A stretch of 40,639 bases of DNA from Pseudomonadota bacterium. Lineage in GTDB: Bacteria > Pseudomonadota > Gammaproteobacteria > Burkholderiales > Thiobacillaceae. The notes under the pieces were generated by a model. That model made no database searches and was not told the DNA's origin. It saw only the letters and a program-made list of their open reading frames with translations. A program made the position numbers and the translations under genes. This document shows, piece by piece, positions 5,245 to 5,473 of this stretch (within the stretch, counting starts at the first letter, position 1; each line of letters opens with the position of its first letter). Where the stretch lies: positions 1-40,639 of the forward strand of contig JAUYET010000016.1 of the NCBI GenBank assembly GCA_030691265.1. Reading direction: 5' to 3'.

Positions 5245-5259
5245 GCAAGGGCTGTGCCA
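5245..5259 (-). promoter_or_regulatory. Sigma-54 (RpoN) -24/-12 promoter for iscA-nifU-nifS
   Basis: Read on the minus strand, the sequence is TGGCAC-AGCCC-TTGC, an exact match to the sigma-54 consensus TGGCAC-N5-TTGC. Transcription would start near 5233, leaving a leader of about 34 bases before the iscA ATG at 5199. Position, orientation and the nif context support it. Confidence 0.8.
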
Positions 5260-5295
5260 GCCTGGCTTCTATCTGTAACTTGTTGTTATTTAAGG

Positions 5296-5323
5296 GGGGT
5301 TGAACTGGATGCGATTCAACCCC
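5296..5323. repeat. 9-bp inverted repeat upstream of the iscA promoter
   Basis: GGGGTTGAA (5296-5304) pairs perfectly with TTCAACCCC (5315-5323) across 10 bases. It lies between the minus-strand sigma-54 promoter and the NifA-type site. It could be a binding site for another regulator or a structural element. No matching family is recognised. Confidence 0.5.
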
Positions 5324-5353
5324 GGTGTTTGGAGTCGTACCGCCGAGAGTGCT

Positions 5354-5369
5354 TGTAGGGTTTGCGACA
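5354..5369. promoter_or_regulatory. NifA upstream activator site shared by iscA and flavodoxin promoters
   Basis: TGT-AGGGTTTGCG-ACA is an exact TGT-N10-ACA NifA site. Its centre is about 128 bp from the predicted iscA start and about 123 bp from the predicted flavodoxin start, in the usual -80 to -150 range for both. A weaker copy, TGT-N10-ACC, lies at 5326-5341. The short motif can occur by chance, so the support comes from its placement between two sigma-54 elements. Confidence 0.65.
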
Positions 5370-5396
5370 GGCGGGAAGTTGACGGCGTCGTCAAGC

Positions 5397-5452
5397 GTAG
5401 GCTGCGCCGTGCGCACCACCAGGCATAGATCGGTGCGCGCGGCGCACCCTAC
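5397..5452. repeat. GTAG-headed REP pair, GGTGCGC family, inside the nif regulatory region
   Basis: The arms 5397-5417 and 5432-5452 (21 bp each) are inverted copies with two mismatches. Each reads GTAG followed by a GGTGCGC-type stem, a short loop and GCGCACC. It is the same family as the perfect pair at 28614-28671. It separates the NifA site from the plus-strand sigma-54 promoter. Confidence 0.8.
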
Positions 5453-5458
5453 GGGATC

Positions 5459-5473
5459 TGGCCCAGCCCTTGC
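5459..5473 (+). promoter_or_regulatory. Sigma-54 (RpoN) -24/-12 promoter for the flavodoxin
   Basis: TGGCCC-AGCCC-TTGC differs from the consensus TGGCAC-N5-TTGC at one base and has the invariant GG/GC doublets at the right spacing. Transcription would start near 5485, 27 bases before the flavodoxin ATG. The N5 (AGCCC) is identical to that of the opposing iscA promoter. Confidence 0.72.

Follow-up and report, generated by a model that had tools for sequence, protein, structure and literature searches.

Divergent control regions under NifA and sigma-54 are already known as a type, of which the region described here is a well-made example; the closest described systems come from Klebsiella, Azotobacter vinelandii, and the nitrogen-fixing betaproteobacterium Azoarcus BH72. 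In the Klebsiella study, the nifH and nifJ promoters are reported to have regulatory features in common across their divergent region (PMC3723869); this too is a divergent sigma-54/NifA region, but with another gene pair, and the combination of one rigid and one variable arm is what we find here. The Azoarcus BH72 report describes nifF1 as NifA-activated and lists both nifF1 and hesB with predicted NifA and RpoN sites (PMC3916325). There the two do not form one shared region, hesB being part of the nif cluster and nifF1 located elsewhere. For A. vinelandii, the excerpted account places iscAnif at the head of the nifUSV operon and nifF in the major nif cluster (PMC9866876); the iscA-nifUS order is thus alike, but nifF forms a separate gene group, and that excerpt describes no shared divergent region. 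A divergent nifF/iscA-nifU region under a shared NifA site was not named in the titles and abstract openings found, which cover the literature in part.

Organization of the Divergent Region

The window, i.e., the whole 40,639-nt stretch of DNA analyzed, contains the following genes and sites around the region of interest.

2508-3716, minus strand: nifS, cysteine desulfurase (TIGR03402, 641 bits; cut-off 530.75; scanned within a longer ORF)
3833-4726, minus strand: nifU, full three-domain form with NifU_N, Fer2_BFD, and NifU domains (TIGR02000, 476 bits; cut-off 273.3)
4876-5199, minus strand: iscA/hesB-type Fe-S protein gene, first of the presumed operon (TIGR00049, 127.7 bits, over its cut-off)
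5245-5259, minus strand: putative sigma-54 -24/-12 promoter of iscA-nifU-nifS (P_iscA), TGGCACAGCCCTTGC; pattern kept in 12 of 12 family loci
5276-5288, minus strand: IHF-like site, TAACAACAAGTTA, 16 bp from the -24 element of P_iscA
5326-5341, no strand assigned: second enhancer site, TGTTTGGAGTCGTACC, TGT-N10-ACC, 28 bp from the canonical site; 75% mean identity over 11 loci
5354-5369, no strand assigned: canonical NifA upstream activator sequence (UAS), TGTAGGGTTTGCGACA; 86% mean identity over 11 loci
5396-5454, no strand assigned: dispersed palindromic (REP-like) repeat between the enhancer and P_fld, with many genomic matches and a hairpin fold
5459-5473, plus strand: putative sigma-54 -24/-12 promoter of the flavodoxin gene (P_fld), TGGCCCAGCCCTTGC; nine of the 10 genus loci whose upstream sequence is available show the pattern
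5512-6072, plus strand: nifF-type long-chain flavodoxin gene (fld; TIGR01752, 204.9 bits; cut-off 146.75)

The outward -24/-12 elements that a first-pass annotation had placed at 5259-5245 (minus) and 5459-5473 (plus), and the TGT-N10-ACA that it had placed at 5354-5369, are all present there. Its distance of about 125 bp from the UAS to both starts is arithmetically right: if transcription is taken to begin 12 nt past each -12 element, at 5233 (minus) and 5485 (plus), the UAS center lies 128 and 124 bp away, respectively. The enhancer had been described as a single TGT-N10-ACA site; that canonical site is real, but it is one of two conserved sites 28 bp apart, the one at 5326-5341 having been missed, as were the IHF-like site at 5276-5288 and the repeat at 5396-5454. 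Sequence comparison among relatives establishes the motifs, a fixed 94-bp arm toward iscA, a variable arm toward fld, and co-occurrence with nif genes.

We consider it quite probable that this is a divergent nif control region in which a two-site NifA enhancer serves iscA-nifU-nifS and most likely nifF. Under nitrogen limitation, NifA would bind the two-site enhancer (canonical 5354-5369 plus variant 5326-5341), and IHF would bend the 94-bp stretch such that NifA touches sigma-54 RNA polymerase at P_iscA (5245-5259) and turns on iscA-nifU-nifS, in a geometry close to that of nifH promoters in this genus. Most likely, the outward P_fld (5459-5473), and hence nifF, would also be activated from this enhancer, through a looser loop that has no conserved IHF site and, in the window, would consist mostly of the REP-like palindrome. 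We infer the binding of NifA, IHF, and sigma-54, transcription itself, and the use of this enhancer by nifF from these sequence patterns.

Taken singly, each motif is weak evidence. TGT-N10-ACA occurs twice in the window (5.5 expected), and the -24/-12 pattern with at most one mismatch occurs 11 times (5.2 expected), a count reached in 3 of 100 shuffles. The outward triple of two promoters and a UAS, for which pattern and distances were chosen after the finding had been seen, occurs once in the window and in none of 400 first-order Markov simulations of it; the three motifs together are thus unlikely by chance. Across the 23 genomes of the genus, TTGTNGGGTTTGCGACA occurs 10 times vs. none for a reversed control, and a loose -24/-12 lies 82-112 bp from a TGT-N10-ACA 56 times vs. 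11 for the reversed control (summed rows), with part of those 56 units in genomes without detected nif genes. The window's genome contains 11 perfect -24/-12 matches, 10 of them outside the window. Contexts were examined for those on contigs C38 and C90; no UAS was found near the perfect sites on C38, one of which lies inside a protoporphyrinogen oxidase ORF and another upstream of an ORF that no NCBIfam model matches.

The iscA Arm and Comparison With nifH Promoters

The iscA side was compared in 12 loci, comprising the 11 genus genomes with NifU and G392, a member of the same family but of another genus that came from a 399-genome sample of the order. All 12 carry the -24/-12 element TGGCAY-N5-TTGC at P_iscA, and the gap from the UAS to P_iscA is 94 bp in 11 of them and 92 bp in G010. 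In every locus, the UAS and a TGT-N10-AC[CG] site are separated by exactly 28 bp, the sole such offset in these regions. Over the 11 ungapped loci, mean pairwise identity is 83% for the promoter, 64% for the IHF-like block, 75% for the second site, and 86% for the UAS, vs. 37, 27, and 52% for three spacers. Nine of the 12 show a loose IHF pattern 16 bp from the -24 element; the window's site is one base off the consensus WATCAANNNNTTR. The protein encoded by the first gene fell under the cut-offs of the ErpA and IscA equivalog models and passed the general TIGR00049 model alone. With NifU and NifS models over their cut-offs and a conserved, nifH-like promoter architecture, the earlier suggestion that these Fe-S genes are nif-regulated is supported, and the most fitting reading of the iscA-nifU-nifS arm is a NifA/IHF/sigma-54 promoter of the standard type.

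The nifH promoters used for comparison come from 11 genus genomes plus G005, the promoter of G005 being assigned by similarity only. Their UAS gap is 97 bp in 10 of these 12 genus genomes and 96 bp in two; 8 of the 12 have an IHF-like site 16-17 bp from the -24 element, and all 12 have a TGT-N10-AC[CG] 29 bp from the UAS. In the direction of the promoter, however, the iscA partner site reads GGT/CGT-N10-ACA and the nifH partner site TGT-N10-AC[CG], such that the iscA arm appears to be built much like a nifH promoter except for the orientation of the partner site. This difference, together with a core that is near TGGAGTC in most loci vs. GGGTTTGC in the canonical site and a last triplet of ACC or ACG, could mean that the site at 5326-5341 is bound by a regulator other than NifA. 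We regard this as somewhat unlikely, since all 12 iscA loci retain a TGT-N10-AC[CG] at 28 bp and all 12 nifH promoters have one 29 bp from their UAS.

The gap measures 105-107 bp in eight more UAS/promoter units, which come from G000 and seven relatives. We take these units as rnfA promoters, given a protein start recognized by eye in G000, G007, and G008 and site similarity in the rest.

Association With nif Genes

The window's genome (58% complete) contains nifA, on a contig that ends just after a UAS + TGGCACAGCCCTTGC unit preceding a gene with an RnfA-like start (recognized by eye). In this 58%-complete assembly nifH, nifD, and rpoN were not found; weak nifH-family matches were rejected, the best scoring 26 bits vs. 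a cut-off of 394. Because rpoN was detected in all other 22 genus genomes, its absence here argues for an assembly gap. The three missing genes weigh against the main explanation, but with nifA present and the assembly this incomplete, the failure to find nifH and nifD cannot be used to refute nif control. Contig C350 of G005 (L113) has a nifH-like promoter unit although no nifH was detected in that genome (77% complete) at the threshold used, and nif-negative calls are therefore unsafe for incomplete bins.

Using E-value thresholds of up to 1e-60 for nifH, 1e-150 for nifA, and 1e-60 for NifU, we found fld in 10 of the 13 genomes with nifH, nifA, or NifU vs. 1 of the 10 without (Fisher p = 0.003, kinship ignored). 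Grouping by nifH or nifA alone gave 9 of 12 vs. 2 of 11 (p = 0.012, kinship likewise ignored). The exceptions are G013, with fld only (84% complete), and G002, G017, and G018, with a nif marker and no fld. G011 (98% complete, 6% contaminated) encodes nifU, iscA, fld, and the full control region (L080), with nifH and nifA undetected, which may reflect contamination, a gap, or true nitrogenase loss.

That these are housekeeping Fe-S and flavodoxin genes beside chance motif matches is scarcely credible and is already contradicted. Each motif is indeed common by itself, but none of the 400 simulations reproduced their arrangement, the geometry is conserved in 12 loci, and NifU (TIGR02000, over cut-off in 11 of 23 genomes) goes with fld in every case save G017, where it goes with nifH and nifA; moreover, 9 of the 10 genomes without detected nifH, nifA, and NifU have no fld match.

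The Flavodoxin Gene and Its Promoter

The best PDB matches of the flavodoxin are 5k9b and 1yob (244 and 239 bits, both flavodoxin 2) and 2wc1 (219 bits), with the next at 156 bits; we take these three to be nitrogenase flavodoxins from Azotobacter and Rhodobacter. Its closeness to them, and the way the gene tracks nif genes, agree with the proposal in the first-pass annotation that it is NifF, and we describe it as NifF-like. Among the 23 genus genomes fld is present in 11, 10 of which provide upstream sequence (the G013 contig stops before the promoter). Nine of these ten carry the P_fld pattern TGG[CT]NY-N5-TTGC; the element in G021 is degenerate (CGGCAT-N5-TTGC, 7 of 10 bases). The window's own P_fld has TGGCCC and not TGGCAC, which we count against the main explanation. 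The identical N5 (AGCCC) in the window's two promoters was dismissed as coincidence, no such identity being found within the promoter pairs of relatives.

Outside the genus, 18 of 21 flavodoxin loci (which include more distant flavodoxins of 44-57% identity) lack a UAS plus -24/-12-like site within 500 bp upstream; G392, where the site lies beyond an intervening gene, is counted among these 18. In the remaining three, L045 (Ectothiorhodospira), L046 (Halothiobacillaceae), and L100, a -24/-12-like site comes after a TGT-N10-ACA. Given the 18 negative loci, NifA control of the flavodoxin would be no general rule in the order.

Spacing of the Flavodoxin Arm

Among the seven genus loci where the two genes are paired divergently, the gap from the UAS to P_fld is 12, 68, 89, 151, 153, 153, and 185 bp, and this distance is thus not conserved, whereas the iscA arm differs by at most 2 bp among loci. 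The argument that equal distances to the two starts imply a shared enhancer consequently fails: the fld arm of the window holds a repeat and its counterparts range from 12 to 185 bp, the iscA arm being 94 bp in 11 of 12 loci, so that the near-symmetry of 128 and 124 bp says nothing about sharing and the symmetric spacing of about 125 bp appears to be fortuitous. At the lower extreme, G008 has only 12 bp from the UAS to P_fld, a distance at which normal looping from that UAS is difficult to picture.

The longer fld-arm gaps are filled by palindromic sequences. The 59-bp repeat of the window (5396-5454) has a second copy at 28614-28672, a hairpin fold, and matches in related genomes as well; a sequence search gave 22 matches to its query in the window's genome (both strands, the locus itself counted), and among the matches listed, those away from the locus all fall in the repeat. 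Copies of it also occur just upstream of UAS sites at L079 6882-6940 and L075 3974-4033. The fld arms of G007, G011, and G021 have in common a palindrome of about 100 bp, probably one inherited insertion, with a full-length relative elsewhere in G021 (L075). At that other G021 locus this relative (L075 4111-4209) separates a UAS from a -24/-12 element; a similar UAS/promoter pair before nifE in G002 (L073) has a gap of 142 vs. 141 bp and no match to that palindrome. The fld arm of G019 contains a palindrome without a match elsewhere among the compared loci. Helical phasing of the UAS-P_fld gaps was considered and rejected, as the Rayleigh p ranged from 0.13 to 0.0085 depending on the helical repeat assumed (10.4-10.6 bp), for seven values of which three probably stem from one shared insertion.

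One rigid and one loose arm, i.e., an asymmetric spacing constraint, is the region's one unusual feature. A tentative and, in our view, unlikely elaboration is that the shared enhancer combines its fixed, IHF-bent 94-bp arm with an elastic nifF arm that has been repeatedly reset by different palindromic repeats, tuning the ratio of nifF to nifUS expression. In the Klebsiella study, the nifU and nifF promoters were the least active among the nif promoters compared, and high nifF expression was deleterious (PMC3723869); a nifF arm that is weaker and looser would fit with this. If the proposed sharing is correct, a single switch would govern nitrogenase Fe-S assembly and a nitrogenase electron carrier in a group represented here largely by metagenome bins, and the loci would form a natural series (12 to 185 bp vs. 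a 94-bp arm) for spacing at a two-promoter sigma-54 enhancer. The spacing asymmetry is the part that merits experiment.

Relocated or Missing Flavodoxin Genes

In three genus genomes (G004, G010, and G012) fld lies away from iscA. The relocated gene in G004 (5% contamination) is accompanied by a TGT-N10-ACC and a TGTAGGGTTTGCGACA of its own, which are spaced 28 bp apart at a distance of 66 bp from P_fld, and iscA in that genome retains its own two-site pair. In G010, P_fld has a candidate UAS at a distance of 43 bp. The relocated fld of G012 keeps its -24/-12 element, with no TGT-N10-ACA in about 2.2 kb upstream, and G017 keeps the enhancer and P_iscA with no fld match found in the genome.

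These cases bear on whether the enhancer serves iscA-nifU-nifS only, with fld having a sigma-54 promoter that lacks a dedicated cis site and responds to NifA from solution or to another sigma-54 activator. Such an arrangement would fit the gap being fixed to P_iscA alone (12-185 bp to P_fld), the IHF pattern that among the seven pairs appears in five iscA arms and in no fld arm, the G012 and G017 loci, and the 18 of 21 outside-genus homologues without the motif pair. We nevertheless judge it quite unlikely, as P_fld stands beside the enhancer in six of the seven divergent genus loci and in degenerate form in the seventh, the relocated G004 and G010 genes have a two-site enhancer and a candidate UAS, respectively, and the L045 and L046 homologues have UAS and -24/-12-like sites. 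Sharing of the enhancer by the flavodoxin gene is likely because P_fld is kept beside it and because the relocated G004 fld is accompanied by a two-site enhancer of its own.

The divergent region of G392 has the same 94-bp iscA arm; opposite it, a weak -24/-12-like element lies 122 bp from the UAS, followed by an ORF and then fld. In G392 (L085, reverse complement) and a Sideroxydans record (L043 5323-5937), the flavodoxin gene comes directly after an ORF of 186-204 codons (186 in G392) that has no Pfam match and may encode a nif-associated protein of unknown function. The end of a similar ORF was recognized by eye before the flavodoxin gene in a Gallionella record (L044).
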